A stretch of DNA of 33,093 bases from Lachnospiraceae bacterium. GTDB taxonomy: Bacteria; Bacillota; Clostridia; Lachnospirales; Lachnospiraceae. The stretch spans positions 1-33,093 of the forward strand of contig JAFUGT010000161.1 of the NCBI GenBank assembly GCA_017469275.1. The letters are read 5' to 3'. A model generated the notes under the pieces. It saw nothing but the letters and a program-made list of their open reading frames with translations, was not told the origin of the DNA and did no database searches. Shown here one piece after another: positions 2,197 through 32,833 of the stretch; the stretch's first letter is position 1; every line of letters begins with the position of its first letter. Position numbers and translations under genes: made by a program.

Positions 2197-2207
2197 GCGG
2201 TGATGAT

Positions 2208-2813
2208 ATGGAGAAGAATAAAGGTTATACACTAGTAGAGATGGTAATAGTAATTGCAATTATGGCAATTTTGGCGAGTCTTTCCATATTTTCTGTTGGA
2301 ATTATAAAGGATGCCAAAAGATCAGCTGCAATTAATACATTTGATAATCAACTAAGCAACTGTCTTGTTAAGACCAAAGCGGTATCAGATAAAAATGTCA
2401 CAGATAAAGAATTATGTATGTATATATACAAACGTACAGTGGGCACAAAAAGTAATTATTGCATTAAGGTTGGATATGAGGTAACAGATGGCGTGCAGGA
2501 TATTACCAAAAAGGATGCAAGTAATCTGCCTATTGTTGTAGGTGCATCTCTCTCTTATGCGACTGCTTCTGCTGATGATACCAATTGGGATGCCATTTTG
2601 CCTAAAGAGGTTACAGATATTGTTTATACCGATGCAACATCTTCAACATCTATTGGATTAGGTAAAATTATTAAGTTTAATAAGTCTAATGGAACTGTAG
2701 AAGATGGTGCAGGTACATATACGTTTTATAAAAATGATACCAAGGATAATGGCGGAACGGCATATGCTACGATTTATCTTGATGAGAAGACAGGTAACCA
2801 TTATATTAAATAG
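2208..2813 (+). CDS. Type IV pilin-like protein (minor pseudopilin)
   Basis: 201 residues. The N-terminus MEKNKGYTLVEMVIVIAIMA is a textbook class III (prepilin) signal: a short basic leader, Gly before the cleavage site, Tyr+1 (Phe or Tyr is usual), Glu+5, then a hydrophobic helix of about 20 residues. After processing by a prepilin peptidase (not in this window) it would sit in the membrane and assemble into a pilus or pseudopilus. The C-terminal globular part is short, polar and not recognisable by eye. It has Cys residues near 48, 66 and 80, so a disulfide is possible. The gene starts 11 bp after the large upstream gene and ends 11 bp before the next pilin-like gene, so the three are very likely co-transcribed. 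Class assignment is firm; major versus minor pilin is inferred from its position beside another pilin-like gene. Confidence 0.85.
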   Translation: MEKNKGYTLVEMVIVIAIMAILASLSIFSVGIIKDAKRSAAINTFDNQLSNCLVKTKAVSDKNVTDKELCMYIYKRTVGTKSNYCIKVGYEVTDGVQDITKKDASNLPIVVGASLSYATASADDTNWDAILPKEVTDIVYTDATSSTSIGLGKIIKFNKSNGTVEDGAGTYTFYKNDTKDNGGTAYATIYLDEKTGNHYIK

Positions 2814-2824
2814 GGGGTGTGGTA

Positions 2825-3847
2825 ATGAAACGGAATAAAGGATTTTCTTTGGTTGAGTTGTTAGTTTCTATCGCCATATTAGCTATTATTATGGTTATGG
2901 TAGTTCAATTCATGGTTACAGCATCGGTCAGTATTAGAAGAACGAGGAAGAAGATGGATCTGCAGACAGAGGCAATTGAGTTTCGTGAACAGTTATCAGA
3001 TGTGTTAATGCAGGCCAGTTATGTTAGAATTCAAGCAAAGGATCTCAACGGTTATCAGATTGATACCGGATTACAGACGGCTAATGTTAATAAGGAACGT
3101 AAGAGAGTGGAGATCGACGATCCATCAGCAGGGACTAAAAAGAATATTACATCAACACCTCTTGCAACGGCTGTTTCTTCTTTAACATATGTATCAGACG
3201 ATTATCCGACTTTTGATAATATTGCTCAAGGAAAGTCAGATAAATTAGATATATATTTTGATAGAACAGATTTCACTATGGTTGGAAAAGCCGGAGACGG
3301 TAAAAAGTATCCTTCTTCTATTGATAAAACTATTAGGTCTTTTAGATTATTGAAAGGTACTGTAAATGGTCAACCTTATTATGTGAAGCCTGAGTACATC
3401 TATATAATATATCCGGAAGCGAAGGATGCTTCAGGTACTGTTATTGAGAATGAACAATGCGTAATATATCATTTCAAAGATACCAGAGTATATATGTACA
3501 AGGGTGATGTTGTTAAAGGTGCATCAGATGTGGATGGTTTTAATAATGCGAAAACACAGTTAAATAACACGGGGGATAAGGATACTAATGATAGGTATAA
3601 TGGGTTATTAGTTGATCTTGTAAATGAAGTATATGTATCTGTGGATACCGCTTCAAATGCTATATTGGTGAGTGCACAGCTTTATGATACTGAGCAGCCA
3701 AGGTCACAACGCGGGACTGATGATTCAGCATATACTAAGTATATATATGATTTTGAGGATTCCATTGTTCTTCGTAATTCTCATGCATTGTCAGCGGCAC
3801 CTAACAGATTATATGAATGTGATATTAATACTGTTACGACACCATAA
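2825..3847 (+). CDS. Type IV pilus minor pilin, PilW-like
   Basis: 340 residues from the ATG at 2825. A GTG in frame at 2819 is less likely because the AGGGGG motif at 2812-2817 is 7 bases from the ATG. The N-terminus MKRNKGFSLVELLVSIAILA has the class III prepilin motif (Gly then Phe+1, Glu+5) and a hydrophobic helix to about residue 32, followed by a basic stretch SIRRTRKKMD. The length and the large C-terminal domain resemble PilW/PilJ-type minor pilins, which prime pilus assembly and sit at the tip. The globular part is beta-rich, with many Tyr and Asp residues. Membrane-embedded before assembly, extracellular afterwards. It lies in an operon with the smaller pilin upstream and the large secreted protein downstream, 36 bp away. 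PilW-like is an inference from size and order; the prepilin class is directly visible. Confidence 0.82.
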   Translation: MKRNKGFSLVELLVSIAILAIIMVMVVQFMVTASVSIRRTRKKMDLQTEAIEFREQLSDVLMQASYVRIQAKDLNGYQIDTGLQTANVNKERKRVEIDDPSAGTKKNITSTPLATAVSSLTYVSDDYPTFDNIAQGKSDKLDIYFDRTDFTMVGKAGDGKKYPSSIDKTIRSFRLLKGTVNGQPYYVKPEYIYIIYPEAKDASGTVIENEQCVIYHFKDTRVYMYKGDVVKGASDVDGFNNAKTQLNNTGDKDTNDRYNGLLVDLVNEVYVSVDTASNAILVSAQLYDTEQPRSQRGTDDSAYTKYIYDFEDSIVLRNSHALSAAPNRLYECDINTVTTP

Positions 3848-3883
3848 CAGATTATTAAGTCGAATGAAAGGAGAATGAGGAAG

Positions 3884-6800
3884 ATGAAGTTGAAAAAATG
3901 TATGAAACGGATTTCTGCAATTATATTGGCTGCTACAATGGTTGTTGTTGCTCTGCCAAATCAACCGATTGTCAAAGCTGATGATACTGATGTTCCTGAT
4001 GAGATTCTATTTCCCATTAATATATTAGATTTCCCGGCTGATAATCTGTTTTTCGAATGTCCGATGAATTGGATGGAAGGTTATGATTCATATTTGGATC
4101 TCACTTCACAGAATATTGCAGGTGTTAATGATGGAGGCGAAGCAGGTAAAAAGCTTGTTGCAGACAAATTAGAGACCGATAAGACAAGTATTTATTATGG
4201 CTTGCCTGTATATAAGGAGAAGACTGTTGATTATATAGCTAGCCGTGTTAAAGCTACGATTGAGAATGCAAAAAGTAAGAATCTTGCTTTTAATAAGCCA
4301 ATTGTTGATAGAAATAGAAATTCTATTTGTGCGACTAATTATATTCACAGATCAGATGAAGAATGGGTTATATTGGATGCAAGTGATACTTATTATGAAA
4401 CAGATTACAAAAATGGTAATGCCAATAAATATGGTCTTAATTATTATGTTACATTAGGAGGGCAGGCTATTAATGCTAATGCGCTTAATTGTTTTAAAGA
4501 TAATTATATTGGTTATATAGGTGGAGATATTACTAAAGATGATTTATCCAATCATGGAAAGGTAACATTTACTTATAATAATACAAAGGGTGCCGGTACT
4601 TATGCTATGTTTGTCTATTATATGACTAACGAGGATAGGAATTTTGTTATTAAAGTTAATGGAGCTGATATTCCTGCAAGTCCAAATCCAATTAATTTTC
4701 CATCTAATGGCACGTGGGATAATCCAAGAGATAAATCGCGTAGTTTTCTTATCACTCTTAAATCAGGTATTAATAAAATTGAATTCAGTGGTGACGGTAC
4801 ATATTATGCACCTAATTTGGATCGAATTGAAATTGGACCTCAAAAGTATTATGGTATTGATGAAGTGGTGGATGATATTACTGTCGAAGCTGAAGGGAAC
4901 AAAGCGACATTTTATGATCCCAATTGGTATAATACATGGCATGGTGATTTCAATGGATATACAGGAAGAAATACGGATGGTAAATCAGTTCATATTGGAC
5001 ATTATAATTCTGAATATTCTATAACTTTTGATGCTGTAAAGGCTGGCAAGTATGATGTCGATATTTATTATTCCTCTTACAGAACTGGTGATTATTCGTA
5101 TAGTTTAAATATTAATAATAATAATACTTCACAAACTGGATTTAGATACAAGACTAATATGTCTGTTGCACCTGCTACTATTACTGGTGTTAATTTAAAG
5201 GCTGGTAGTAATACAATTAAGATTAGCGGTTGGTTCAATACCAATGTTGACAAGTTTGTATTTAGGTATGTTCCTGATTCCTTTGATAATGCAACCGGTA
5301 CAGTTCCTTTAGGTAATTATAAGGACTCAAAGGAGAAATATAATATTGACAGAGATGGTAACAAAGTATCTGATTATGGCTTTTTCGATATAGCGACATG
5401 TTATGATTATGCATATTTTATGACAGCCAACTTATACAAGAATCATCCGTCAATAAATGCTGCTTATAATAAATATACAAATCTTGTATTCCATAAGGTA
5501 AATCAGGATGGTAAGAATTATTATGAATTTATGGGTGATCAGATTCATAATGAGAGTATTTCTCAAGGTGATTATAATTCTAAAATCGGGGATGTATATG
5601 ATAAACTTGGCTCTGCAGCTACAACTGCTGAAAAAGAGGCTGATCTTGACAAATATAATGCTGTTAAGAAAGGAATAGGTAGACTTATCTATAATCCTGA
5701 AACCAGAATGATTAGAAATGCATGTGATGCAGAAGGTAATTATGTTGGTCCATCAGGGAGTGAATATGAAACTAATTCAGGATTCATGTTTGTCTGTGAT
5801 GGTGATGAGTATAATAAGGATTCTGCTAATTATGATGCTGGTTATGGCATAAAGAAATATCCCAATCTTGATCCGTCAAAAAATGGCGATGACAATAAAA
5901 AACATAATTTTAACTATACTATTAGAACTCATAGCCGTTTTGTATATAAAGAAGGAACCGGACAACAGTTCTTCTTCTCCGGTGATGATGATGTGTATGT
6001 ATTTGTTAACGGTAACCTGATTGTTGACTTGGGTGGTCAGCATCAACAGTTAAATGGTTCTATTAACTTGGATACTTTAGCTGAACAGCCGGGTAATCCA
6101 TATGGGTTAATAGCTGATAAAGCGGTTGATTTTGACTTCTTCTATATTGAGCGACATTCGACAGCATCAAACTTCTGGGGCAAGATGAGTTTTCAGCTTA
6201 GAAATGATGAAGTAGCACTTAAGTGGCCTACAGAGCCTGATAATATTGCAGGTATGACTGATACGAAGATTCCATATGGTTTTACCATAGATCTTAATTA
6301 TCAGTTTAGTAGTTTGAGAGACTTAAGTACAAGTAAAGATATTACGTTCCGAGATGACATTGGTAATTACATAGGTGCAGATAAGTTTGAACTATCCGAT
6401 CAGGTGAAAATTGGTAACAAATATAAAGTTAAAGAAACGGATGATTCAGGAAATGAAAAAATAGTAGTCAAGGAAGATTCGACAAAATACCATATGTCGG
6501 CGATTGTTCATAGAATGCAGCCGGATGAGACGTACATAGATGAGGTATATGATTTTCAGTTTAATAATCCTGTGATTGTTACCGATGAAGAAAAGAAAGC
6601 GGTTATGGATTTCTTTAAGGAGCTTTCTTTGGAACAAGGTGATATGGTTGAAATATCCGGGATTATGTATGATACATCAAAGAAGAAGTTTGAAGAATTT
6701 GATGAAACAGATAAGGCAAGTGTCCGAAGACTTAGTTATAAGGTATATGTTGACTATATGACATATATGACTATGGGTGGTACTAACAGTATAGAGGATA

Positions 6801-7552
6801 CCGATGGATTTAAGCAGACTATCGACAGTGATGTTGTAGCTAAGGTTGTTATTGGTTCTCTTACAATTACTTGTTCGCTTGATGATGAGAATCTTGGTGA
6901 GGAATATGATACTAAGGAAGATTTTTCATTGTTTGGTAATTTTAAGTTGTTGCGAATTGATAGTGAGGATGATAAATCTACTACTGACGTTGATGAGAGA
7001 GTTATTTTTGAAAATACTGTTAACTTGAGAAATTCAGGAAGTATAATTATTTTCGATGCTGAACCACATCCCGAACTTAAGAAAACTTTAGATGATGGAA
7101 CTGTAATAAATCCTATTGAGCCAGGTCCTATTCCTAAGGGATCATATGATTTGATGTTGGAAACTGATAAACTTACCGGTTACGAGCTCGTTACAGAAGT
7201 TTGGGTAGGTGGTGAACTTAAAGTGGTTGTTAGCAGATCACCTAACGATAATAGTGATGATTTCAAAGTTGAAGTAAAAGATCCTGATTATATCAAAAAA
7301 TATACTGCTGATTATAGGGAGAAGCTTGCTAAGGAGTTGTTTGGTGATAATCCTGAAGAATATGAGGCTTATCTTGCCCGTATTAATGAACTGGATAATG
7401 AAGGTTTTTTGAAAGAACTATTTTCACATAATAAATTTAGACTTTTGATTGAGCCAAGTCTTAATCTGGAAGAAGAAGAATGGATTTATCCTCCGGTTGA
7501 GTATAAGTTGAAAGCTTATCGTACTGTTAATCCATTAAAGGATCTCACATGA
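3884..7552 (+). CDS. Secreted fibro-slime domain protein with carbohydrate-binding-like modules
   Basis: 1222 residues from the ATG at 3884. The ATG at 3875 lies 1 base from the AAAGGAG motif (3867-3873), while 3884 is 10 bases away, so 3884 is preferred. A Sec signal peptide is clear: basic KLKKCMKR, hydrophobic ISAIILAATMVVVALP, then a VKA cleavage site near residue 32. Two beta-sandwich modules that look like CBM6/CBM35/PA14-type folds lie at about 224-317 and 332-465. A fibro-slime domain follows at about 676-774 (FFFSGDDDVYVFVNGNLIVD, then DFFYIERHSTASNF). No LPXTG motif, lipobox or C-terminal membrane helix is seen, so the protein is released, pilus-bound or held non-covalently. Its position directly after two minor pilins suggests a pilus-associated adhesin, possibly for polysaccharide. 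Domain calls are by eye; ligand and location are inferred. Confidence 0.7.
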   Translation: MKLKKCMKRISAIILAATMVVVALPNQPIVKADDTDVPDEILFPINILDFPADNLFFECPMNWMEGYDSYLDLTSQNIAGVNDGGEAGKKLVADKLETDKTSIYYGLPVYKEKTVDYIASRVKATIENAKSKNLAFNKPIVDRNRNSICATNYIHRSDEEWVILDASDTYYETDYKNGNANKYGLNYYVTLGGQAINANALNCFKDNYIGYIGGDITKDDLSNHGKVTFTYNNTKGAGTYAMFVYYMTNEDRNFVIKVNGADIPASPNPINFPSNGTWDNPRDKSRSFLITLKSGINKIEFSGDGTYYAPNLDRIEIGPQKYYGIDEVVDDITVEAEGNKATFYDPNWYNTWHGDFNGYTGRNTDGKSVHIGHYNSEYSITFDAVKAGKYDVDIYYSSYRTGDYSYSLNINNNNTSQTGFRYKTNMSVAPATITGVNLKAGSNTIKISGWFNTNVDKFVFRYVPDSFDNATGTVPLGNYKDSKEKYNIDRDGNKVSDYGFFDIATCYDYAYFMTANLYKNHPSINAAYNKYTNLVFHKVNQDGKNYYEFMGDQIHNESISQGDYNSKIGDVYDKLGSAATTAEKEADLDKYNAVKKGIGRLIYNPETRMIRNACDAEGNYVGPSGSEYETNSGFMFVCDGDEYNKDSANYDAGYGIKKYPNLDPSKNGDDNKKHNFNYTIRTHSRFVYKEGTGQQFFFSGDDDVYVFVNGNLIVDLGGQHQQLNGSINLDTLAEQPGNPYGLIADKAVDFDFFYIERHSTASNFWGKMSFQLRNDEVALKWPTEPDNIAGMTDTKIPYGFTIDLNYQFSSLRDLSTSKDITFRDDIGNYIGADKFELSDQVKIGNKYKVKETDDSGNEKIVVKEDSTKYHMSAIVHRMQPDETYIDEVYDFQFNNPVIVTDEEKKAVMDFFKELSLEQGDMVEISGIMYDTSKKKFEEFDETDKASVRRLSYKVYVDYMTYMTMGGTNSIEDTDGFKQTIDSDVVAKVVIGSLTITCSLDDENLGEEYDTKEDFSLFGNFKLLRIDSEDDKSTTDVDERVIFENTVNLRNSGSIIIFDAEPHPELKKTLDDGTVINPIEPGPIPKGSYDLMLETDKLTGYELVTEVWVGGELKVVVSRSPNDNSDDFKVEVKDPDYIKKYTADYREKLAKELFGDNPEEYEAYLARINELDNEGFLKELFSHNKFRLLIEPSLNLEEEEWIYPPVEYKLKAYRTVNPLKDLT

Positions 7553-11081: not shown

Positions 11082-11252
11082 TTGATATTATTAATTGGCA
11101 TCTGTGTATATGTTGTGTAAACACACATGATTATTTTGATTATGATATATCTACTGTGAATAGTAACAGTATATATATCGTATACTGAATTGTTATGAAT
11201 AATATATTGTATAATTGTTGGTTTTTGTTACAACAGATATCGGATAATTTAG
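11082..11252. other. AT-rich convergent intergenic region with hairpins
   Basis: The region lies between the convergent ends of the aminopeptidase and lysR genes. A 7-bp hairpin CAGTATA/TATACTG lies at 11167-11187, with ACAGTA/TACTGT copies overlapping it. A weaker bulged stem lies at 11110-11128 (ATGT-GTG with CACACAT). No U-tract follows either, so termination here is only a guess. I see no gene. Confidence 0.4.
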
Positions 11253-12362
11253 TTAATCATTAGGATAAATACTGCCTAGTGAATCAAGGAATTTCCTGGT
11301 TGTCTGACTGATGCCTTTTTCTTTGTACACAAAACCTACCGTACGCGGGGTGATTTCATAGTCCATGGGAATTTCCATGACCTGCTCTGTGGCAAGATAG
11401 TCGGAGATGAATTCCTTAACAACGCCGGCAACTCCCATTCCGATTGATGCAAAGTCAATAAGAAGATCCATGTTATTGATCTCAAAAATCTGCTCGGGAT
11501 GGATATTATTGTTATTCATATAATTGTCTATATAGATTCTGGAAATGTTACCTTTGTCAAGAAGCATAAGGTTGCATTTTTCCAGAATTTCTTTTTCACT
11601 AAAGTCAGTATAAGCGTGTTCAGTCGTTGAATGTTCGGAGAACACAAAAAGTCCGGTCATATTAGGTAGAAAAGTATTGTTATTATCGTTGATTAAGGAA
11701 GTTTCGTTATCAGGATTGTTATCGTTAGTAAAAACAGTTTCACTATTAGCTTCATTATAATTAGTCATTCCGTGATCCGGGTTGGTACGGGATGATAAAG
11801 CAGCCTCATGTCTTTCTCTAACCATCAGATTATCAATGTATGTTTTGGTGGCTACAAATATATCATGGATAGATTTTACAGGAAGGAAGCTATAACCGTT
11901 ATCTAAATCGGTCTCACATATCAGACCGATATCAATCTTATCTTCCCGTAATTGTTTGAGAGTTTCAAATGTCGGCTTACAGTCGATTGACACTTTCACA
12001 TGAGGATTGTCCATAATGAAGTCCTGAAGATAAGGAAGGAGTATATGCTTGCATAAAGAAGTAGAGGCTCCGATCCGAAGCTGTCCCATACCAAGTGCAC
12101 TGATTTGTCTTAGTTTTTTTTCAGCGTGATCGATTGTGTCGAAGGCTTTTTCAAGATGCTCATATAAAGTTTTCCCTTCCTCCGTAAGTTTTACACCACG
12201 CTTACTTCTGACGAAAAGTGTATGGGAGATGGATTGTTCTAATTTCGTTATCGATTTGGAAACCGCAGGCTGGCTTATATATAGATTCTCAGCAGCCTTG
12301 CTGATGTTACCGCATTTGGCAACCTCATAAAAAATTTTGTAGTGATTTAAGTTCTGTTCCAT
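11253..12362 (-). CDS. LysR family transcriptional regulator, likely of the leu/ilv genes
   Basis: 369 residues. The N-terminus is a clear LysR winged helix-turn-helix (YKIFYEVAKCGNISKAAENL, then SQPAVSKSI). The effector-binding domain follows from about residue 92. LysR proteins are normally near 300 residues; the excess is an insertion at about 181-254 that is rich in Asn, Asp, Thr and Ser, after which the fold resumes (EKEILEKCNLMLLD). The gene is divergent from leuC, with a perfect 28-bp inverted repeat and extra half-sites between them. This is the typical layout of a LysR activator and its target, so control of branched-chain amino acid synthesis is the best inference. The effector is unknown. 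The start has GAAAGGA 6 bases upstream on the minus strand. A near-palindrome at 12407-12424 could serve autoregulation. Confidence 0.9.
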   Translation of the reverse strand: MEQNLNHYKIFYEVAKCGNISKAAENLYISQPAVSKSITKLEQSISHTLFVRSKRGVKLTEEGKTLYEHLEKAFDTIDHAEKKLRQISALGMGQLRIGASTSLCKHILLPYLQDFIMDNPHVKVSIDCKPTFETLKQLREDKIDIGLICETDLDNGYSFLPVKSIHDIFVATKTYIDNLMVRERHEAALSSRTNPDHGMTNYNEANSETVFTNDNNPDNETSLINDNNNTFLPNMTGLFVFSEHSTTEHAYTDFSEKEILEKCNLMLLDKGNISRIYIDNYMNNNNIHPEQIFEINNMDLLIDFASIGMGVAGVVKEFISDYLATEQVMEIPMDYEITPRTVGFVYKEKGISQTTRKFLDSLGSIYPND

Positions 12363-22557: not shown

Positions 22558-23244
22558 ATGGCGGTAAGTATTTTATTAGCGGATGATGATGATCTTTTGC
22601 GGGATCTTGTTAAAGATGTATTGGAAGAAGAAGGGTATATAGTATATGCTGTGGGAGACGGAGACACTGCGATAGATGTTTTATGGGAACATCAGGATAT
22701 TTCTCTTGCAGTTCTTGATATTATGATGCCCGGAGCCGATGGAATGCAGGTTCTAAAGGAGATAAGGGAAAAATCCGATATTCCGGTTTTGATGCTTACA
22801 GCCCTTGGTGATTCAGGAAGTGAACTTAATGCGCTAAGAGGTGGCGCTAATGATTATGTCAATAAACCATTTCATTATGACATACTATTGGAGAGAATCA
22901 AAAATCTGTTAAAACTAACAAATGCAGAGGATATTAATACGATAGAAAGAGGCATTCTTAAAGTAGATCCATTGGGGCATAAGGTGTTCGTTAATGATAA
23001 CGAGGTCATTCTTAATAATAAAGAATATCAGTTGTTAGAACTATTGGTACATAATGAGAATATAGTTCTTTCGAGAGAAACAATACTCGACAGGGTCTGG
23101 GGTTATGATTACGAGGGAGATATCAGAACCATAGATACCCATATCAAAATGCTGAGGGCAAAGATAGATGGTGCGGGGAATTATATACGAACAGTCAGAG
23201 GAACCGGGTACTGCTTTGAATTAGATATTAAAGAATCTAAGTGA
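22558..23244 (+). CDS. OmpR/PhoB-family response regulator
   Basis: 228 residues. The receiver domain (about 1-115) has the acidic pocket DDDD at 9-12, phospho-acceptor Asp54 in VLDIMMPG, Thr81 in MLTA and Lys103 in NKPF. The C-terminal winged helix (about 130-225) has LNNKEYQLLELLV, the recognition region RETILDRVWGYDYEGDIRTI and VRGTGYCF. It is a DNA-binding transcription regulator phosphorylated by the kinase that follows. GTGAGG precedes the ATG. The stop overlaps the region just before the kinase start, so the two are co-expressed. Likely autoregulated, because 11-bp direct repeats lie in front of its promoter. The stimulus and regulon are unknown. Confidence 0.94.
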   Translation: MAVSILLADDDDLLRDLVKDVLEEEGYIVYAVGDGDTAIDVLWEHQDISLAVLDIMMPGADGMQVLKEIREKSDIPVLMLTALGDSGSELNALRGGANDYVNKPFHYDILLERIKNLLKLTNAEDINTIERGILKVDPLGHKVFVNDNEVILNNKEYQLLELLVHNENIVLSRETILDRVWGYDYEGDIRTIDTHIKMLRAKIDGAGNYIRTVRGTGYCFELDIKESK

Positions 23245-23267
23245 TTATAAAAGAAGGTAATGAATAT

Positions 23268-24728
23268 ATGAAGATGTCGATCAAAAAGAAATTTACATTT
23301 ATCGGTGCAGGAATGATATTAGGTTTTATTGTTATGAACATCCTTCTGACATACCTTTTTATGATTCCATTTTCGGTCAAGTTCAGCCAGAGACAGCTTA
23401 ACAGGATTATTATTCAAATTGAAAAGCAGGATATGCAGGATGAAGAGGAGTTTCAGGAATATATAGATCAGTTGGAAGAGGACATGAATACAAGAATCAC
23501 GATTGTCGACAGCGATGGTATGATTCTTTTCACGACATGGCATAAGAATAGAGAAAATATAGGAAATGACACATTATCAGGAAAACTATTCTATTCAAAT
23601 AAAGAGGAGTTGGATGAAGGAGAAGTTGTTTCCACAAGCAGTGACAGGGAGGAAGGTCCCGGCAATCAGATAAGAATCCTAGTATTAAGGCGGATTGGTA
23701 ATGACAGATATATTTTTATTTCAAGATCTTACAGAAGTCTCCGAAATACAATGCATTCGGCAATTCTTTTTGAACTTGTTTCCGGATGTGTGATTCTAAT
23801 AATAGGATTGATCATAGTCCGGAACTGGAGTTATTTTTTTGTTACGCCGATAGAACAGCTGACCAAAACAACGGAACATATTGCCAATCTGGAATTTGAT
23901 AATAAAGTTGCTGTGAAGTCAGAAGATGAATTAGGCCAGCTTGCTAATGCCATTAACCGAATGTCCGATCATCTTGAAGCAAATGTGGAGCAGTTACAAA
24001 ATGATATAGAAAATCGAAAGAAACTTGTCAGAAATCTCTCTCATGAGATTAAGTCTCCCGTTGCGGTCATTATGGGATATGCAGACCGTATGAAGGCGAT
24101 TATATCGAAGAATCCGGATAAGGCGATTGGGTATTGTGAGATAATCTCCGATGAAAGTGCAAGGGTCGACAGTCTTGTGAAGGAAATGCTGGAATTTTCA
24201 AAGTTAGAACAGGACTATGGTGAACCTTTAAGAGATAAGTTTAAAGCGAAGGTATTGTTTGAGGACATAGATAAACGTTTTCATCAGGAAAATGATATAA
24301 AGAATACTATCTTAGGAGATAATGATTCGAATGTACAGATAGTTTTTGAGGAGGAATATGAAGAAGATGATGTTATATTTGCCGATTATGTCATGATGGA
24401 GAGAGCAGTATATAATCTTATAAGAAATGCGGTAACTTATGTTACGGGAAATCCCCCACTTATCAGGGTTACAGGTAAACAACAGGCAGGTTTTTATGAG
24501 ATCAGTGTTTTTAATTCGGGAAGTTCAATTCCTGAAGAAGATATGCCCTCCATATGGGAGCCTTTTAGCAAGGTAGATAAAGTAAGAGGGAGAAGTAAAA
24601 AGGGATATGGTCTTGGATTATCCATAGTGCGTGAGATTGTAGAAAAGCATAACGGGTACTATAATGTCAATAATGTAGATGATGGAGTGGAATTTACTGT
24701 AAGTATACGTAACGTGAATGATAAGTGA
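23268..24728 (+). CDS. Membrane sensor histidine kinase
   Basis: 486 residues from the ATG at 23268 (GAAGG 10 bases upstream); an in-frame GTG at 23241 overlaps the regulator stop and is less likely. Helix 1 is at about 10-33, an extracytoplasmic sensor of about 130 residues with an acidic stretch follows, and helix 2 is at about 165-185. HAMP comes next (about 186-240). The H-box is NLSHEIKSPVAV with phospho-accepting His259. The ATP-binding domain has Asn387 in LIRNAVTYV, an F-box EPFSKVDK and the G2 motif KGYGLGLSIVREI. The G1 box reads NSGSSIPEED rather than DxGxGI, a variant that may slow ATP turnover. It is the partner of the upstream regulator. The sensor is not similar to any domain I can name. 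Confidence 0.93.
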   Translation: MKMSIKKKFTFIGAGMILGFIVMNILLTYLFMIPFSVKFSQRQLNRIIIQIEKQDMQDEEEFQEYIDQLEEDMNTRITIVDSDGMILFTTWHKNRENIGNDTLSGKLFYSNKEELDEGEVVSTSSDREEGPGNQIRILVLRRIGNDRYIFISRSYRSLRNTMHSAILFELVSGCVILIIGLIIVRNWSYFFVTPIEQLTKTTEHIANLEFDNKVAVKSEDELGQLANAINRMSDHLEANVEQLQNDIENRKKLVRNLSHEIKSPVAVIMGYADRMKAIISKNPDKAIGYCEIISDESARVDSLVKEMLEFSKLEQDYGEPLRDKFKAKVLFEDIDKRFHQENDIKNTILGDNDSNVQIVFEEEYEEDDVIFADYVMMERAVYNLIRNAVTYVTGNPPLIRVTGKQQAGFYEISVFNSGSSIPEEDMPSIWEPFSKVDKVRGRSKKGYGLGLSIVREIVEKHNGYYNVNNVDDGVEFTVSIRNVNDK

Positions 24729-24874: not shown

Positions 24875-26878
24875 ATGATTATGAATTTTGATGGTTTAAA
24901 GTACAGATTGAGCAATTTCCAGCTGGGAGTTTCATTTATACATAACAGTGTTTTTGAGGCAAGAGTTAACGAATACAAGGAGAAATACAGAGGTAAAGTA
25001 TACGATACCAATATAAGACAAAGACTTGATTACTCCTTTATATCTCTATGCAGAGATAAGGTTGTGGAGGAGTATCTGTACAGTGGCAAATATACATTTT
25101 ATCGGATTGGTGTTTTGATCAATCCTTTTCGTTTTGCTCCCAAATCAGCAGTTTTACTTTTCTATCATCCGGATCCGGTAAGGGTGGAACTTCGAGTTAT
25201 GAGCGGCAAGGGTAATTCTATATATACGGATGATATTTCACCTAAGGATTATCATCGTATCTCCATCACAGGTCTTGAGAATGGAAAAAATGAAATCGTC
25301 CTTTCCTTGTATGACAAGGATGGCAATTATCTTATGACCAGATCGGTCTATATAACTCTTAATAATATTAACGATGAAGAAGATAATATGGTGGTAAAGT
25401 CCGAGCTTAAGATGCAGAGTGCCTATCAGCGCATATTTGTAACCGGTGGGAATATGGATCCCTTTGTGATCAATTCTAACGGTTCATTATTCCATGTTAA
25501 CCATTTGGCAGATATGAAGACGGCTTATTATGGAGTGTATCCCTTTGAACCGGGAAGGTTCTTATGGCCTGTGAGAAAGGTCAATGCTCCATCCTTTGCC
25601 AATCCTCATTCTGCTCTTTTTTATGAGATGGATTTTATGGGGCGTATATATAAGACCTATCATTTAAAAAAGGGTATTCATCATTTTGTACAGATGATGC
25701 CTAACGGCAATCTTGTAACATTCAGTAATTCCATGGAAGCCTATGGAGGAATTATCAAAGAAGGTCACATGGAGGATATCATAGTTGAGATTGACCGCAA
25801 TACAGGAAAGACTGTAAGGACGGTATATCTTAAGGATGTTTTCGGAACCCGATTTGCTGATATGGTGGATTGGGTACATGGTAATTCCCTTGAATATAAT
25901 GAAGAAGAGGATACGATGCTTATATGTATGAGAAATATCCATACATTTGCCAAGATAAGATGGTCCACGGGAGAACTGTTATGGTTTTTCTCCATACCGG
26001 AGATGTGGAAGGGCACTGACATTGAGGATAAGTTATTAAAGCCGGTAGGTGATGTGAAATACAACTATCAGGCACATGCTGCCTATGAGATTAAGGATTT
26101 CCGTGGTAATAATAACGGTATTAGATTCTATCTTGTGTATGACAATCATCGTCTTAACAGAAGACCTGTTGATGGACATGAGGAGGACAAACATTCTTAT
26201 ATTAATATATACGCAGTTGATGAGAAGGAAATGACGATACGTCAGGTCAAGAACCTTAAGGTGGATATGTCTATTGTCAGATCTAATGCCAGATATGACG
26301 CAGCCTCTAATCATCTGTTCAACATGGCAGGCTGCGCTTGGAGAGAGATAGAAGGATATCGTGGAAAACTTGAAGAATATGATTATGATACAGAGAAACT
26401 TCTTAACAGATGGTATATAAAGGAAGATTTCTTTTCCGCATATCAGTTTGACTGGAGAAGCGATGATTACTGTAAGCCGTTAGGCGCAATCAAAGGTGCC
26501 TGCTTTGAGTGTGGCGAAGCAGATGAAATGGTACCTCTTACGGATACATTTAACGGATTGGATATGAATGCGCTTATGAGTTTCGATTCGGTTGAAGAAC
26601 TGGAGAAAGTGGATGGACTTAATTTCAAGCGCCCTTTTCTTGAAGAGGGATATCTCTATTTTTTCACAAAGGATCACACCATAGATGCACTCATACTAAA
26701 GGGTGAAAATCATAATTACATGCATGACTATACAGATACCTGGCAGGCAGAGGAAAAACATGAGGCACAGAAGTACCACTGTGTGCTGTCAATTAAGAAT
26801 GTTAAGCCTGACCGTTACGATATATTGATATTGGTAAAGGGAAAGCTTTTTAATACCGGATGTTATTTGAAGATATAA
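24875..26878 (+). CDS. Arylsulfotransferase (ASST) family protein, no signal peptide
   Basis: 667 residues. An N-terminal beta-sandwich (about 80-162, NPFRFAPKSAVLLF onward) matches the Ig-like domain of ASST. The rest is a propeller-like ASST domain. The catalytic residues of E. coli ASST (His252, His356, Arg374, His436) have likely equivalents: His270, His335 (DWVHGNSLEY), Arg353 (CMRNIHTFAKI) and His401. The 335-353 spacing of 18 equals that of 356-374. ASST moves sulfate between phenolic compounds through a sulfo-histidine and does not use PAPS. E. coli-type enzymes are periplasmic, but no signal peptide or membrane helix is seen here. It precedes cysD by 110 bp, beside the sulfate import and activation genes, so a role in sulfur metabolism is inferred. 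Substrate is unknown. AAAAGG precedes the ATG at 5 bases. Confidence 0.8.
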   Translation: MIMNFDGLKYRLSNFQLGVSFIHNSVFEARVNEYKEKYRGKVYDTNIRQRLDYSFISLCRDKVVEEYLYSGKYTFYRIGVLINPFRFAPKSAVLLFYHPDPVRVELRVMSGKGNSIYTDDISPKDYHRISITGLENGKNEIVLSLYDKDGNYLMTRSVYITLNNINDEEDNMVVKSELKMQSAYQRIFVTGGNMDPFVINSNGSLFHVNHLADMKTAYYGVYPFEPGRFLWPVRKVNAPSFANPHSALFYEMDFMGRIYKTYHLKKGIHHFVQMMPNGNLVTFSNSMEAYGGIIKEGHMEDIIVEIDRNTGKTVRTVYLKDVFGTRFADMVDWVHGNSLEYNEEEDTMLICMRNIHTFAKIRWSTGELLWFFSIPEMWKGTDIEDKLLKPVGDVKYNYQAHAAYEIKDFRGNNNGIRFYLVYDNHRLNRRPVDGHEEDKHSYINIYAVDEKEMTIRQVKNLKVDMSIVRSNARYDAASNHLFNMAGCAWREIEGYRGKLEEYDYDTEKLLNRWYIKEDFFSAYQFDWRSDDYCKPLGAIKGACFECGEADEMVPLTDTFNGLDMNALMSFDSVEELEKVDGLNFKRPFLEEGYLYFFTKDHTIDALILKGENHNYMHDYTDTWQAEEKHEAQKYHCVLSIKNVKPDRYDILILVKGKLFNTGCYLKI

Positions 26879-26900
26879 AGTATGGTATATAGAGGAGCCT

Positions 26901-26934
26901 GATACCGTCAGCGAAGAATGAGCGCTAAGGTATC
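26901..26934 (+). other. Hairpin between the sulfotransferase gene and cysD
   Basis: GATACC (26901-26906) pairs with GGTATC (26929-26934). An inner AGCG/CGCT pairing gives a two-part stem with a 9-nt loop. No U-tract follows. It lies 22 bp after the sulfotransferase stop and 54 bp before cysD, so it could be an attenuator, an mRNA 3' end protector or an intergenic repeat copy. Confidence 0.5.
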
Positions 26935-26988
26935 GGCATCCGACTGATGTGAGATTAATAAAAAATATAATATAGAGGAGAAAAAGTA

Positions 26989-27879
26989 ATGGATCATCTA
27001 GACATATTAGAAGCGGAATCCATATATATAATGCGTGAAGTGGCGGCAGAGTGTGAAAAACCTGTAATGCTTTATTCCATAGGAAAAGACAGCTCTGTAA
27101 TGCTTCATTTGGCACTTAAAGCCTTTTATCCTGAGAAACCACCGTTTCCTTTCATGCATATCGATACTACATGGAAGTTTAAGGAAATGATATCATTTCG
27201 TGATAAAGTAGCCAGGGAATATGGACTTGATATGATAGTATATACCAATGAAGAGGGAGTGAAGCAGGGAATCAATCCCTTTGATCACGGTTCGGCATAT
27301 ACGGATATCATGAAGACGCAGGCGTTGCGTCAGGCTCTTGACAAGTATGGATTTACGGCAGCATTTGGTGGCGGCAGAAGAGATGAGGAGAAGTCGAGGG
27401 CGAAAGAGAGAATTTTTTCATTTCGTAACAGCGACCATGGATGGGATCCTAAGAACCAGCGTCCGGAGGTATGGAAGTTATATAACACGCGCATACATAA
27501 AGGAGAGAGTATGCGTGTATTTCCTTTGTCTAATTGGACTGAGAAGGATATATGGCAGTATATTGAGAGGGAGAATATTGAGATTGTACCTCTCTATTTT
27601 GCCAAGGAACGCCCTGTTGTTTTCAGGGATGGAAATATAATCATGGTGGATGATGACAGGATGCGTCTGCTTCCCGGAGAAAAAATTGAGAATAAGATGG
27701 TTAGATTCAGAACCCTTGGATGTTACCCGCTTACAGGTGGAATCGAATCAAATGCCGATACCTTGCCTGCCATTATAGAGGAGACGCTTTCGGCAGTTTC
27801 GTCTGAGCGAACCAGCAGGGTTATAGATCACGAGGAGGCGGGAAGCATGGAGAGACGAAAGAGAGAGGGGTATTTTTAG
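26989..27879 (+). CDS. cysD: Sulfate adenylyltransferase subunit 2
   Basis: 296 residues, normal for CysD. It belongs to the PP-loop ATP pyrophosphatase family: [17 protein letters not shown] near residue 27 is the ATP-binding loop. Other conserved stretches are [30 protein letters not shown], and [16 protein letters not shown]. With the GTPase subunit CysN it makes APS from ATP and sulfate, in the cytosol. GAGGAG precedes the start. The stop abuts the ATG of cysN-cysC with no gap, implying coupled translation and fixed stoichiometry. The heterodimeric CysDN type is typical of Proteobacteria and Bacteroidetes and less usual in Firmicutes, many of which use the single-subunit Sat. Confidence 0.96.
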
Positions 27880-29709
27880 ATGAATTCAATGCTAAAATTC
27901 ATTACCTGTGGAAGTGTTGATGACGGAAAATCTACGCTGATCGGGCATATGTTATATGATGCAAAACTTATATTTGCCGACCAGGAAAAAGCCCTTTTGT
28001 TAGACAGTCGTGTAGGCAGCAGGAACGGAATGATAGATTATTCCCTTCTGTTAGATGGTCTTATGTCGGAGCGTGAGCAGGGAATTACAATAGATGTGGC
28101 GTATCGTTTCTTTACAACAGATAAAAGAAGTTTCATAGTTGCGGATACTCCCGGACATGAAGAATACACCAGAAACATGGCAGTGGGTGCGTCCTTTGCG
28201 GATCTGGCGGTCATACTTGTGGATGCCACTAAAGGAGTTCTTATTCAAACCAAGAGACATACAAGGATATGTGCTCTTATGGGTATAAGGCATATAGTCT
28301 TTGCTGTCAATAAGATGGATATTATAGAATATGATAAAAGAAGATTTGAAGAGATAGAACTACAGATCAAAAAACTTGCGTTGGAGTTTGATTTTCAGAG
28401 TATGTATATTATTCCTGTTTCGGCAACGGAAGGGGATATGTTGACTGACAGCTCCACTAATATGTCATGGTTTAAGGGAGAAACCTTGCTTTCTTATCTG
28501 GAAAATGTTGATGTGACGGAAAAGATAGATGAGAACAGTGGTTTTTATATGCCGGTACAGAGAGTGTGCAGACCTGACAGGACGTTCCGTGGTTTTCAGG
28601 GACAGATCGAGTCGGGCAAAATCAGTGTGGGTGACGAGATCGGTGTCCTGCCAAGTGGAGAAAATGCCAAAATTGCTTCTCTTCTTGCAGGAGATAAAGA
28701 GGTAGATAAAGCATCTAGGGGACAGGCGGTCACTATATGTCTTGATAGAGAGGTGGATGTATCAAGGGGTTGTGTATTATACAAGGATGTGTCCCTTGCG
28801 GTGGGGAGTCTCTTTGATGTCTCTTTACTTTGGATGGATGATGATAAGCTTATTGAAGGAAAGAATTATTATCTCAAATTGGGTACTAAGATTGTTCCTG
28901 CAACAGTGATGAAGATAAAGTATAAGATTGATGTCAATTCCGGAGAGCATATTCCCGCTGAAGGTATATTCAAGAATGAGATTGCCAGATGTGAGATTTC
29001 GACCGGTGCACCAATAGTATTTGACAAGTTCAAAACTAATAAGGAATTGGGCTCATTTATACTGGTTGACAGAGTGACCAATATGACTTCGGCTTGTGGA
29101 ATCGTAAGGCACAAACTTAGAAGAGATGACAATATTATTGCTTATGATATGGACATAACCAGGGAAAGCAGAAGCGCACAGATGGGACAGCAGCCATTTA
29201 CCCTTTGGTTTACAGGTCTTTCCGGCTCTGGCAAATCGACTATTGCCAATGCAGTCGAAAAGCGGTTGTTTTCGATGAATAAATATACAATGTCTTTAGA
29301 TGGAGACAATATTAGAAAAGGTCTTAATAAGAACTTAGGATTTAAGGAGAAGGACAGGATAGAGAATATCAGGCGTATAGCAGAGGTGTCAAAATTGATG
29401 AACGATGCGGGACTTATCGTGCTTACATCATTTATATCCCCGTATGCGGCTGACAGAGAAAATGCCAAAGCTATTATCGGTAATGATAATTTCTATGAAA
29501 TATATATAAGCACCTCTTTGGAGGAATGTGAGAGAAGAGATGTAAAAGGTCTCTATAAAAAGGCTAGGAATGGGGAGATCCCGAATTTCACAGGGGTATC
29601 AAGTGAATACGAAATTCCGGATGCTCCGGCACTTGTAATTGACACTGAAAGCATAGATGTGGACAAGGCCTGTGAAATGATAATTGATCTTATCAAGGAT
29701 AAACTGTGA
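27880..29709 (+). CDS. cysNC: Sulfate adenylyltransferase subunit 1 / APS kinase fusion
   Basis: 609 residues. The N-terminal part is the CysN GTPase: G1 GSVDDGKST (11-19), G3 DTPGH (89-93), G4 NKMD (144-147), then EF-Tu-like beta domains. From about 435 follows APS kinase: Walker A GLSGSGKST near 445, LDGDNIRKGLN, ENIRRIAEV and SFISPY. Both active sites look complete. The fusion takes sulfate to APS (with CysD) and phosphorylates APS to PAPS, so it resembles NodQ/CysNC of other bacteria. The start codon immediately follows the cysD stop. PAPS could feed assimilation or sulfotransfer; no PAPS or APS reductase gene is seen in the window. cysA starts 20 bp downstream. Confidence 0.95.
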   Translation: MNSMLKFITCGSVDDGKSTLIGHMLYDAKLIFADQEKALLLDSRVGSRNGMIDYSLLLDGLMSEREQGITIDVAYRFFTTDKRSFIVADTPGHEEYTRNMAVGASFADLAVILVDATKGVLIQTKRHTRICALMGIRHIVFAVNKMDIIEYDKRRFEEIELQIKKLALEFDFQSMYIIPVSATEGDMLTDSSTNMSWFKGETLLSYLENVDVTEKIDENSGFYMPVQRVCRPDRTFRGFQGQIESGKISVGDEIGVLPSGENAKIASLLAGDKEVDKASRGQAVTICLDREVDVSRGCVLYKDVSLAVGSLFDVSLLWMDDDKLIEGKNYYLKLGTKIVPATVMKIKYKIDVNSGEHIPAEGIFKNEIARCEISTGAPIVFDKFKTNKELGSFILVDRVTNMTSACGIVRHKLRRDDNIIAYDMDITRESRSAQMGQQPFTLWFTGLSGSGKSTIANAVEKRLFSMNKYTMSLDGDNIRKGLNKNLGFKEKDRIENIRRIAEVSKLMNDAGLIVLTSFISPYAADRENAKAIIGNDNFYEIYISTSLEECERRDVKGLYKKARNGEIPNFTGVSSEYEIPDAPALVIDTESIDVDKACEMIIDLIKDKL

Positions 29710-29729
29710 AAATTAGTGGAGAGAGAAAA

Positions 29730-30797
29730 ATGTATGTTGAGATGAAAAATATCAGCAAATCCTTTGGCGATTTTAAGGCTTGTGATAATGTAAGTTTTGG
29801 AATTGAGCAGGGAAAACTGGTTGCACTTTTAGGTCCAAGTGGCAGCGGGAAGACCACTATTCTCAGAATGATTGCCGGATTAGAGTGGCAGGATGAAGGA
29901 GACATTATGATTGACGGAAAGGTCGTCAATGATGTACCCGGTAAGGAAAGGGAGATTGGCTTTGTCTTTCAGAATTATGCGTTGTTTCGATATATGAATG
30001 TATATGACAATATTGCATATGGATTAAAGGTTAAGAAGGTGCCGTCAAAAGAGATAAAAGAGACGGTGACAGAGCTTATAGAACTTGTGGGGCTTACAGG
30101 TTTTGAAAAAAGATATCCTGCACAGTTATCAGGTGGGCAGCGTCAGAGGGTTGCTTTTGCCAGAGCGCTGGCACTTAAACCCAAACTGCTGTTGCTGGAT
30201 GAACCCTTTGCGGCAATTGACGCAAAAGTGCGCAAGGAACTTAGAAACTGGCTTAAGGATATGATAAGCCGGGTGGGGATAACAAGTATATTTGTTACCC
30301 ATGATCAGGACGAAGCCGTTGAGGTGGCTGATGATATATTGATAATAAATGAGGGCAGACTTGAACAGATGGGTAAACCCTTAGAGATATATAAAAAGCC
30401 GGCTACACCTTTTGTTGCGCAGTTCATCGGTTCCTCAATTGTACTTGATAAGTTTGAAGGGTTTAAGGGTTTTGAAGATATCAATGATAAATCTCAAGTG
30501 GTCATAAGGCCTGAATTTGTTGAAGCATTTAAGGGTGATAATACGAGATTCCAGAAACTCATTGCTGCGGCAGAAAAAGGGACGGTTAAGAACATTCAGT
30601 TCCGTGGGAATTGCCTTGAGATTTCCTTAGATGTCAACGGAGTAACGCTTACCACCAACAGGTCCCTGGAGAGAAGACCGGTGAAGGCGGGAGATGAGAT
30701 GTATGTGCTGATATATCGTATATATGTGCTTACCGGAGAAGATACGGTGGTGAGGAAGAATGTGTTGCTCAAAGATGTTAATGTGGAAATGTTGTGA
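29730..30797 (+). CDS. cysA: Sulfate/thiosulfate ABC transporter ATP-binding protein
   Basis: 355 residues from the ATG at 29730 (GGAGAG upstream). An in-frame GTG at 29706 overlaps the cysNC stop and is less likely. Walker A is GPSGSGKTT, the Q-loop VFQNYALFRYMNVYDNIAYG is typical of CysA, the signature is LSGGQRQRVAFARAL, Walker B is LLLLDEPFAAID, and the H-loop is VTHDQDEA. The C-terminal part (about 235-355) is a TOBE-like regulatory domain. It powers sulfate uptake with CysT and the lipoprotein encoded next. The fit to CysA over other importer ATPases comes from the Q-loop wording and the neighbours. cysW is not in the window. Confidence 0.95.
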   Translation: MYVEMKNISKSFGDFKACDNVSFGIEQGKLVALLGPSGSGKTTILRMIAGLEWQDEGDIMIDGKVVNDVPGKEREIGFVFQNYALFRYMNVYDNIAYGLKVKKVPSKEIKETVTELIELVGLTGFEKRYPAQLSGGQRQRVAFARALALKPKLLLLDEPFAAIDAKVRKELRNWLKDMISRVGITSIFVTHDQDEAVEVADDILIINEGRLEQMGKPLEIYKKPATPFVAQFIGSSIVLDKFEGFKGFEDINDKSQVVIRPEFVEAFKGDNTRFQKLIAAAEKGTVKNIQFRGNCLEISLDVNGVTLTTNRSLERRPVKAGDEMYVLIYRIYVLTGEDTVVRKNVLLKDVNVEML

Positions 30798-30829: not shown

Positions 30830-31909
30830 ATGAGAAAGAAAATTAGAAGATTGATAGGGATAGCTGCAATGTCAACGTTAGTTGTGGGTATGGTTACCGG
30901 ATGTGGAGGCGAGAATTCGGAAGGCCCGGCGGATGGTTATGTTATTGAGATGACAAATGTATCCTATGATCCCACTAGAGAATTATATGCAAATTATAAT
31001 GAGGTTTTTAAGGCTCATTGGAAGGAGGAGACCGGTCAGGATGTGGAGATAACCCAGTCTCACGGTGGTTCAAGTAAGCAGGCATTAGAGGTTGCCAATG
31101 GCTTAGAGGCGGATGTGGTAACATTGGCGTTAGAAGGTGATGTGGATGTTGTGGCAGATGCAGGGCTCATTGAACCGGGTTATACTTCTGAGTTTGAACA
31201 TGCCAGTTCCCCGTATACTTCCACTATAGTATTCCTTGTCAGAAAGGATAATCCTAAGAATATCAAGGATTGGGATGATCTTACCAAGGATGGTATAGGT
31301 GTTATAACACCAAGCCCTAAGACTTCCGGTGGCGCAAGATGGAATTATCTTGCGGCATGGTATTTCTTTGAAAAGCAAGGGATGAGCGAAGATCAGATTA
31401 TAGAGAATATCACGAAATTATATAAGAATGTATTGGTACTCGATTCAGGAGCGAGAGGTTCGACTACCACATTTACAGAGAATAAGCAGGGCGATGTGCT
31501 GATTGCGTGGGAAAATGAAGCTTTCCTTTCGATGAAGGAATCACCGGGAGAATACGAGATTGTTGTTCCGTCAGTCTCTATATTGTGCCAACCTACCGTC
31601 GCAGTTGTGGATGAGATAGTAGATGAGAGAGGAACCAGGGAGGTTGCCACAGAATATCTGTCATATCTGTATTCAGAAGAAGCGCAGCGTGTTGAGGCAG
31701 AGAATTATTATCGTCCTTCCGCTGAGAATATAACAGCGGAATTTGCCATGGATACGTCTGATAATGTTATTACGGAAGTTCCGGAGGATGGCAAATGGAT
31801 AATAACCAATATTGAGATGACTGATATCGAGCATTTTGGAGGATGGCCTGAAGCCTTAGAAAAGCATTTTAATGATGGGGCATTATTTGACCAGATATAT
31901 GAGAATTAA
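30830..31909 (+). CDS. sbp: Sulfate-binding lipoprotein
   Basis: 359 residues. A lipoprotein signal with lipobox MVTGC puts the acylated Cys at 25, so the mature protein is anchored outside the membrane. The family motifs VSYDPTRELY, QSHGGSSKQA and the region DVVTLALEGDVD are those of sulfate-binding proteins (Sbp/CysP). WNYLAAWYF and DSGARGSTTTF belong to the ligand-binding cleft. The protein presents sulfate, or thiosulfate, to CysT/CysW/CysA. Sbp and CysP cannot be separated by eye. The gene is 32 bp after cysA, has GAAAGGAAG upstream, and is followed by a strong hairpin before cysT. Confidence 0.95.
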   Translation: MRKKIRRLIGIAAMSTLVVGMVTGCGGENSEGPADGYVIEMTNVSYDPTRELYANYNEVFKAHWKEETGQDVEITQSHGGSSKQALEVANGLEADVVTLALEGDVDVVADAGLIEPGYTSEFEHASSPYTSTIVFLVRKDNPKNIKDWDDLTKDGIGVITPSPKTSGGARWNYLAAWYFFEKQGMSEDQIIENITKLYKNVLVLDSGARGSTTTFTENKQGDVLIAWENEAFLSMKESPGEYEIVVPSVSILCQPTVAVVDEIVDERGTREVATEYLSYLYSEEAQRVEAENYYRPSAENITAEFAMDTSDNVITEVPEDGKWIITNIEMTDIEHFGGWPEALEKHFNDGALFDQIYEN

Positions 31910-31959: not shown

Positions 31960-31993
31960 TAATTTACGGTTATGAAGAAAAAGAGGTAGTTTG

Positions 31994-32833
31994 ATGAAAA
32001 GAAGATCAGGAAAAAGAATAATTCCCGGCTTTGGACTCTCCTTAGGAGTGACCCTTGCATATCTTGGAATAATAGTAATCATCCCGCTATGCGCTCTTGT
32101 TGTATTTACCGCGGGAATATCACCTGCAGATTTTATTGAGACTGTGACCAGACCGAGAGTTTTAGCAAGCTATGGCGTGAGTTTTCTTACAGCGTTGATT
32201 GCGGCTTTAATAGATGCCGTTATGGGGGTTATAATTGCATGGGTATTAGTGAGATATGAATTTCCCGGCAAAAAGATAATGAATGGAATAATTGAATTAC
32301 CCTTTGCCTTGCCAACGGCTGTCGCAGGAATTGCTCTTACTCATCTTACTACGGATAATGGCTGGATAGGGAAGATATTTCATGATCTTTTTGGAATAGA
32401 TATCGCTTATACAAAAGTGGGAATAACCGTAGCGCTAATATTTATAGGCATTCCCTTTGTTGTGAGAAGTGTCGAACCGGTCTTGGAAAAAATGGATAAG
32501 AGTTATGAAGAAGCGGCAGATATGTTGGGAGCAGGGAGAGGAAGAATATTCGTAAGTATAATTCTTCCGGAGATTGCACCGGCGCTTTTCTCGGGTTTTG
32601 CCCTTTCTTTTGCCAGAGGTTTAGGCGAATATGGAAGTGTGGTCTTTATTGCCGGGAATAAGCCCTATGAGACAGAAATCGTTCCTCTTATGATATTGTC
32701 CCAGTTACAGGAGTATGATTATGTCAGCGCCACTTCCATTGCGCTTGTAATGCTTGCTACTGCATTTATAATTCTTCTGTTAAACTCTTATATCATAAGC
32801 AGAAGTTCCAGAATCACAGGAAATGCCGCTTAA
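31994..32833 (+). CDS. cysT: Sulfate ABC transporter permease, CysT/CysU type
   Basis: 279 residues from the ATG at 31994, with AAGAGGT 6 bases upstream; a TTG at 31991 precedes it directly. Hydrophobic helices alternate with short loops (first about 18-38, last about 248-268), giving about six membrane segments. The EAA loop is EEAADMLGAGRGRIF followed by ILPE, the contact site for CysA. The sequence ELPFALPTAVAGIALT is typical of CysT. It forms the pore together with CysW, which would be expected next but is not in the window; the following 260 bp hold repeats and no gene. A complete length and intact motifs suggest a functional protein. Confidence 0.94.
   Translation: MKRRSGKRIIPGFGLSLGVTLAYLGIIVIIPLCALVVFTAGISPADFIETVTRPRVLASYGVSFLTALIAALIDAVMGVIIAWVLVRYEFPGKKIMNGIIELPFALPTAVAGIALTHLTTDNGWIGKIFHDLFGIDIAYTKVGITVALIFIGIPFVVRSVEPVLEKMDKSYEEAADMLGAGRGRIFVSIILPEIAPALFSGFALSFARGLGEYGSVVFIAGNKPYETEIVPLMILSQLQEYDYVSATSIALVMLATAFIILLLNSYIISRSSRITGNAA

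Follow-up and report, generated by a model that had tools for sequence, protein, structure and literature searches.

Arylsulfate sulfotransferases (ASSTs; EC 2.8.2.22), including EcAST of Escherichia coli CFT073 (structure 3ELQ) and DhAST of Desulfitobacterium, are the reference class of sulfotransferases that do not depend on 3'-phosphoadenosine-5'-phosphosulfate (PAPS). In EcAST, ping-pong transfer proceeds through His436, and Thr501 is named as an active-site residue (PMC13426309, section 6). Here we describe an ASST-family protein encoded in a stretch of 33,093 nucleotides from a Lachnospiraceae bacterium (assembly GCA_017469275.1, contig JAFUGT010000161.1, positions 1 to 33,093), hereinafter the window. 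The ASST gene (24875..26878, + strand, as are all features given below) directly precedes cysD and cysNC, the genes for PAPS synthesis. The protein shares with this class the PF05935 match and the EcAST His/His/Asn/Arg/His set but differs from the EcAST-type, PAPS-independent enzymes in that it is cytosolic, judging by its sequence, has Arg in place of Thr501 and is linked to APS kinase (APS, adenosine-5'-phosphosulfate). With somewhat better than even confidence, we interpret it as the terminal sulfotransferase of a sulfation module in the cytosol, one that is probably fed by PAPS.

An ASST-dependent pathway that is ultimately fed by PAPS has been described for caprazamycin, where a small pyrone serves as the relay for sulfonate coming from PAPS (PMC4924298) and the ASST is Cpz4 (PMC13426309). 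In that pathway, a carrier brings the sulfate, whereas in the window system no P-loop loader was detected by profile (carrier genes were not searched for). PAPS-dependent P-loop sulfotransferases (PF00685, PF13469) occupy the same genomic slot beside PAPS genes but belong to a different protein family. The adipostatin enzyme AdpST comes with a dedicated PAPS cassette (PMC12135136). Reductive sulfate clusters found in this bacterial family (cysTWA-aprA-aprB-cysD-cysN, with apr labels of our own) have cysD and cysN in common with the window; however, all 24 of these loci encode an AprA-like protein and lack APS kinase, whereas the window encodes APS kinase and no reductase. Among the literature matches listed, no title or abstract opening refers to an ASST encoded within an operon for PAPS synthesis.

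A predicted cytosolic ASST with the catalytic residues of EcAST

The 667-amino-acid (aa) product of the window gene matches PF05935 (E 5.9e-40, 137.9 bits, cut-off 24.2) and reaches 20.3 bits with the N-terminal Ig-like domain PF17425 (cut-off 24.2). It has no match in NCBIfam or to the P-loop sulfotransferase families PF00685 and PF13469, and a single-sequence search with it matched no PDB chain; the ASST family profile matches 3ELQ with E 7e-40. In the profile alignment, EcAST His252, His356, Asn358, Arg374 and His436 correspond to window His270 (codon 25682..25684), His335 (25877..25879), Asn337, Arg353 (25931..25933) and His401 (26075..26077), the last being the counterpart of the histidine that is sulfated in EcAST (PMC13426309). 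An initial annotation of this DNA, made from the sequence alone, had assigned the protein to the ASST family with His270, His335, Arg353 and His401 as probable catalytic residues, and both assignments stand. All five catalytic residues are intact in 41 of 41 family rows scoring above 600 bits, a set that includes the window protein and near-identical rows.

The active-site Thr501 of EcAST is replaced by Arg469 (26279..26281) in the same profile alignment. Position 469 is not invariant across the family, given that Ile is found there in 11 of the 14 classical-like ASST rows of the same order. These classical-like proteins are 24-34% identical to the window ASST over part of its length and form a separate clade (DhAST itself was outside this comparison).

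The stop-to-stop frame of the gene comprises only 671 codons and is closed four codons upstream of the start; therefore, no upstream start could add a signal peptide, and a missed one is ruled out. Among the N-terminal 70 residues, the most hydrophobic 17-residue stretch has a mean hydropathy of 0.64, compared with 1.98-2.72 in ten relatives, which we read as exported or anchored because their values exceed 1.7. Both frame and hydropathy thus indicate that the protein lacks the signal peptide or N-terminal membrane anchor of exported ASSTs and, on this sequence evidence, is cytosolic, as the initial annotation proposed. Lack of a signal peptide is not new by itself because such ASSTs have been reported earlier (PMC10932419, citing its reference 33).

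Linkage to two kinds of PAPS operons

Downstream of the ASST gene, cysD (26989..27879; NF009214 and TIGR02039 above cut-offs) encodes the small subunit of sulfate adenylyltransferase, and cysNC (27880..29709; NF004035 and TIGR00455 above cut-offs, PF01583) encodes the large subunit fused to the PAPS-making APS kinase. We examined whether this arrangement recurs in relatives, as the initial annotation had recommended, and found that it does. A family scan of 299 genomes gave ASST matches in 28. In 13 of these, the match is strong (E < 1e-50), with at least 21 strong genes, a lower bound given that at most four candidates were scored per genome. Of the 21, seven are situated at cysD loci (the window, L031, L036, L043, L045, L047 and L048; L and G numbers denote loci and genomes, respectively). 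The chance of six or more of the 21 falling within 10 kb of cysD is about 7e-9, a crude estimate that assumes independence. At the genome level, cysD (E <= 1e-40) is present in 9 of the 13 strong-ASST genomes versus 45 of the 286 others (p 4.5e-5, not corrected for relatedness).

Among 22 ASST loci from another search, four of which (L169, L171, L172 and L173) are contigs already included in the family scan, cysC is located beside the ASST gene or within about 5 kb of it in 14 (L157-L169 and L173). The ortholog in L157, from an uncultured Clostridia member, is 74% identical to the window protein and lies in the order response regulator-histidine kinase-ASST-cysD-cysNC-cysA-sbp-cysT, followed by a second permease. 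Twelve of the 14 loci (L158-L169) represent a second operon type, in which a separate cysC directly precedes the ASST gene and, where the contig reaches, there is a separate cysN along with a cysD about 38-40% identical to that of the window. This type is found in Eubacterium xylanophilum ATCC 35991 (L166); L173 belongs to Anaerosacchariphilus polymeriproducens MCWD5. The association of ASST with PAPS synthesis is thus seen in two types of operon, one with cysD-cysNC and the other with cysD, separate cysN and cysC, and the gene orders differ. This recurrence rules out a chance neighbourhood. No consistent acceptor candidate was detected among the neighbouring proteins scanned.

ASST and P-loop sulfotransferases at cysD loci

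We read 59 cysD loci, namely, all 58 places from the cysD search and the G108 locus. Within 7 kb of cysD, APS kinase is encoded at 31 loci, an AprA-like protein (our own label, based on a Pfam FAD-binding match and the position beside a ferredoxin-like gene) at 24, and both at none, so that PAPS-making and reductive loci are distinct. The remaining four loci have neither gene, two of them (L096 and L131) at contig ends.

Among the 31 PAPS loci, P-loop sulfotransferase profiles match 15, a count that is not independent because proteins encoded at these very loci went into the profiles; the ASST profile matches seven, and no locus has both (hypergeometric probability 0.004). Nine loci have neither, two of these (L098 and L118) being at contig ends. 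At the 24 loci with the AprA-like gene, there was no match to either profile. A scan for the P-loop motif pattern identified 10 of the 31 PAPS loci, none of the 24 AprA-like loci and none of the seven ASST loci. In G188, a 99% complete sibling within the genus of the window organism, cysDNC is followed by two full-length P-loop genes of a family that we denote A3 and a 148-aa piece of a third; this genome has no ASST and no match to the sulfite reductase profile NIR_SIR. The A3 P-loop-like family consists of 13 proteins of about 375-420 aa, encoded beside cysDNC at 10 of the 31 PAPS loci (for example, L093:10883-14022). It is nearly unseen by Pfam (best PF00685 E 1.6e-4) and likewise by NCBIfam (three members). 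The family aligns with the PF00685 and PF13469 protein set (E 3.5e-6, probability 88%); a PDB profile search returned no sulfotransferase among its matches.

Evolution of the Arg469 clade

The 41 rows above 600 bits include 10 with an N-terminal membrane segment, six cytosolic rows with Thr469 and 25 cytosolic rows with Arg469. A cysC gene lies within 6 kb of 20 of the 25 Arg469 genes but of none of the six cytosolic Thr469 genes and none of the 10 membrane-segment genes. After clustering at 80% identity, cysC is linked to 15 of 20 Arg469 clusters versus 0 of 12 others (Fisher 3e-5, relatedness not corrected). Conversely, Arg469 is present in all 20 intact rows near cysC, whereas all 10 membrane-segment rows have Thr or Tyr at this position. 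Eleven positions separate the Arg469 group from the membrane-segment group, of which Arg429, Arg469 and Gln624 are fully conserved in the former (counted over 20 of the 25 Arg469 rows, with near-duplicates dropped). All 31 cytosolic rows have the Arg429-Arg430 pair (26159..26164), which is absent from all 10 membrane-segment rows.

A quick tree was made along with a careful one of 49 rows, from which columns 429, 430 and 469 were excluded. The cytosolic members form one clade (support 100/99), inside which a nested clade (100/99) consists of the Arg469 rows and two degenerate members, L047 and L048; this one subclade contains every PAPS-linked member, and all but the two degenerate ones have Arg469. 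Both trees rule out the classical-like ASSTs as the nearest kin, placing them in a separate clade. On the tree, the membrane segment is lost once, Arg469 is gained once and cysC linkage changes five times. Segment loss and Arg469 thus show a strong historical association, but each is a single event.

Several other architectures were observed among the relatives. L037 (44-4546) and L040 (9460-13845) contain open reading frames of about 1500 aa with two tandem ASST matches and an N-terminal hydrophobic segment. In L174-L178, cytosolic Thr469 ASSTs are encoded close to a 780-800-aa protein (approximate length) that looks secreted from its N-terminus and that, in L176, has a beta-helix match; the assemblies of these loci, as identified by accession prefix, also contain a cysC-ASST operon. 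A FabH/chalcone-synthase-like gene (L034:7375-8343) located beside the membrane-segment ASST gene of G108 is reminiscent of the caprazamycin relay with its pyrone carrier.

Reductases and other PAPS users in the ASST genomes

The 20 intact Arg469 rows near cysC come from 19 genomes, 13 of which were searched for other consumers of PAPS (G000, G082, G108, G248, G270, G594, G607, G621 and G633-G637; the genomes of L158, L160, L161, L162, L163 and L165 were left out). No NIR_SIR match was found in 11 of the 13. G000, the draft genome of the window organism (2.80 Mb, 82.6% complete; the window is on G000:C180), has no CysH and no NIR_SIR match, CysD being the sole protein matched by PF01507 (no genome-wide search for AprA was made). 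Likewise, there is no reductase among the window proteins scanned, in agreement with the initial annotation, and the genome-wide reductive pathway that it named as a competing fate of PAPS is not apparent from these searches. Together with the split between APS kinase and AprA-like loci, the lack of NIR_SIR in 11 of the 13 genomes searched, the exceptions being G082 and G635, rules out sulfate reduction as the general role of the PAPS-ASST loci.

The same data bear on the unlikely alternative that the enzyme performs ordinary intracellular aryl-sulfate exchange or scavenging, or the reverse reaction, making PAPS from 3'-phosphoadenosine-5'-phosphate (PAP) and aryl sulfates, the neighbours being merely co-regulated sulfur genes. 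Every catalytic residue of the aryl-sulfate ASSTs is kept, and in G607 (L209) the ASST gene adjoins an NMT1-family importer gene, a family that includes importers of sulfonates and sulfate esters. However, the cell from which the window comes has its own genes for sulfate import and activation, no sulfite reductase that could use scavenged sulfate is present in 11 of the 13 genomes searched, and the ASST profile matches none of the 24 AprA-like loci.

The P-loop profile matched none of 15 ASST genomes (the above 13 plus G029 and G097) and did match four of four control genomes, whose proteins are part of the profile. PF00685 and PF13469 had no match in G000, G082, G108, G248 and G270, the five of the 13 genomes covered. 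These results, and the lack of any PAPS locus among the 31 in which ASST and P-loop genes co-occur, argue against a relay in which an undetected PAPS-dependent sulfotransferase loads a phenol-like carrier and the ASST passes the sulfate on to the final acceptor, in the manner of the caprazamycin presulficidins. Such a relay would still require the PAPS operon, known ASSTs use aryl sulfates (PMC13426309), and a presulficidin relay from PAPS is mentioned for caprazamycin biosynthesis (PMC4924298); nevertheless, we regard it as improbable here.

Proposed function

In the function that we favour, sulfate would be imported by CysA-Sbp-CysT and activated to APS and then to PAPS by CysD and CysNC, after which the ASST-family enzyme would move the sulfuryl group via His401 to a cytosolic acceptor; expression is probably controlled by the two-component system whose genes lie immediately upstream. 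The reaction would follow the ping-pong chemistry of EcAST, with His401 as the transfer residue and the PAPS made next door as the donor. For the Arg469 clade, the most likely donor would be PAPS itself, whose phosphates Arg469, and possibly Arg429, would help to hold, and direct use of PAPS by this clade appears likely. A broader evolutionary scenario, to which we give slightly less than even credence, is that the clade became PAPS-dependent after losing the export signal and gaining Arg469, providing a second, non-P-loop route to PAPS-driven sulfation that replaces P-loop sulfotransferases in PAPS operons of Lachnospiraceae and their kin. Of the cytosolic sulfate-exchange role tied to PAPS that the initial annotation put forward, the cytosolic location and the link to PAPS hold, whereas general sulfate exchange is not supported as stated; between the two activities that it considered, sulfation of a metabolite fits better than scavenging because the ASST occupies the slot of P-loop sulfotransferases and the PAPS-linked clade has an active-site Arg.

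Several observations weigh against PAPS-fed sulfation. A review treats bacterial arylsulfotransferases as PAPS-independent and states that PAPS was not used by the enzyme of Eubacterium A-44 (PMC13426309). Segment loss and Arg469 gain are each a single change; hence, their coincidence with cysC does not provide independent events for a test. In the stretch fetched, cysC is missing for five of the 25 Arg469 rows (L032, L033, L035, L044 and L046); a contig end is no more than 3.3 kb away in each case, and cysC is present elsewhere in the genomes of L033, L044 and L046. NIR_SIR matches exist in G082 and G635 and, besides CysD, PF01507, which was searched in five of the 13 genomes, matches a 118.8-bit protein in G248 and, weakly, proteins in G082 and G270 (23-25 bits, cut-off 22.5). 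The P-loop profile would miss families unlike those it contains, there is one weak Sulfotransfer_3 (PF13469) match in G029, and the lack of PF03567 matches in the 14 genomes searched was accompanied by a silent control.

The degenerate L047 and L048 also argue against a single catalytic role throughout the clade. Their ASST genes (L047, 8524-10440; L048, 8746-10668) adjoin cysD-cysNC, but four of the five catalytic residues are gone, only Arg353 being retained in L047 and His401 in L048, and both genomes (G286 and G192, respectively) hold P-loop sulfotransferases elsewhere. In both cases, the cassette consists of ASST, cysD, cysNC and an inositol-phosphatase-family gene (PF00459), which we presume may be CysQ, the enzyme that removes PAP. 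These two proteins may be pseudoenzymes or sensors, and their retention of structural residues next to cysD-cysNC is what a non-catalytic partner of the PAPS machinery, such as a scaffold or a sensor of PAPS or sulfate, would leave. For the clade as a whole, and the window protein in particular, such a role is very unlikely, as the catalytic residues are kept in every row above 600 bits.

Gene neighbourhood in the window

The conserved neighbourhood begins with an OmpR-type response regulator (22558..23244; PF00072 and PF00486), which is 84% identical to its counterpart at the equivalent position in L157, followed by a sensor histidine kinase (23241..24728; HisKA, HATPase_c and HAMP) that is also found at the equivalent position in L157. 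This pair directly precedes the ASST gene in L036 and L035 too, and is three genes away in L208. On the other side, the gene order ASST-cysD-cysNC given by the initial annotation holds, but the unit does not end at 29709, continuing instead through the importer genes: the ATPase of a cysA-type sulfate ATP-binding cassette transporter (29706..30797; TIGR00968 above cut-off), an sbp-type sulfate-binding protein (30830..31909; NF008022 and TIGR00971 above cut-offs) and the cysT sulfate permease (31991..32833; TIGR02139 above cut-off). In L157, the unit also includes the second permease (11224-12045) after cysT, the counterpart of which would fall past the end of the window.

No Rfam RNA element was found in the window at the gathering threshold. 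A potential RNA hairpin in the gap between the ASST gene and cysD (26885-26950, z -2.8) was dismissed because it is not conserved in the ortholog L157. Far upstream of the unit, the region 196-7552 encodes a 1225-aa protein that matches PA14, as well as prepilin-like proteins, of which one was recognized by PF07963 and another by eye.

Implications

If a branch of the ASSTs indeed functions in PAPS operons, it would break the division that treats this family as PAPS-independent, and PAPS use would have arisen in a family with no sequence relationship to the P-loop sulfotransferases. Arg469 offers a one-residue test of PAPS use, and named strains exist (E. xylanophilum ATCC 35991 and A. polymeriproducens MCWD5); PAPS-using ASSTs could serve enzymatic sulfation. 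For the bacteria themselves, the finding, if true, would point to sulfate being taken up and activated in part of the Lachnospiraceae for sulfation rather than for cysteine synthesis.

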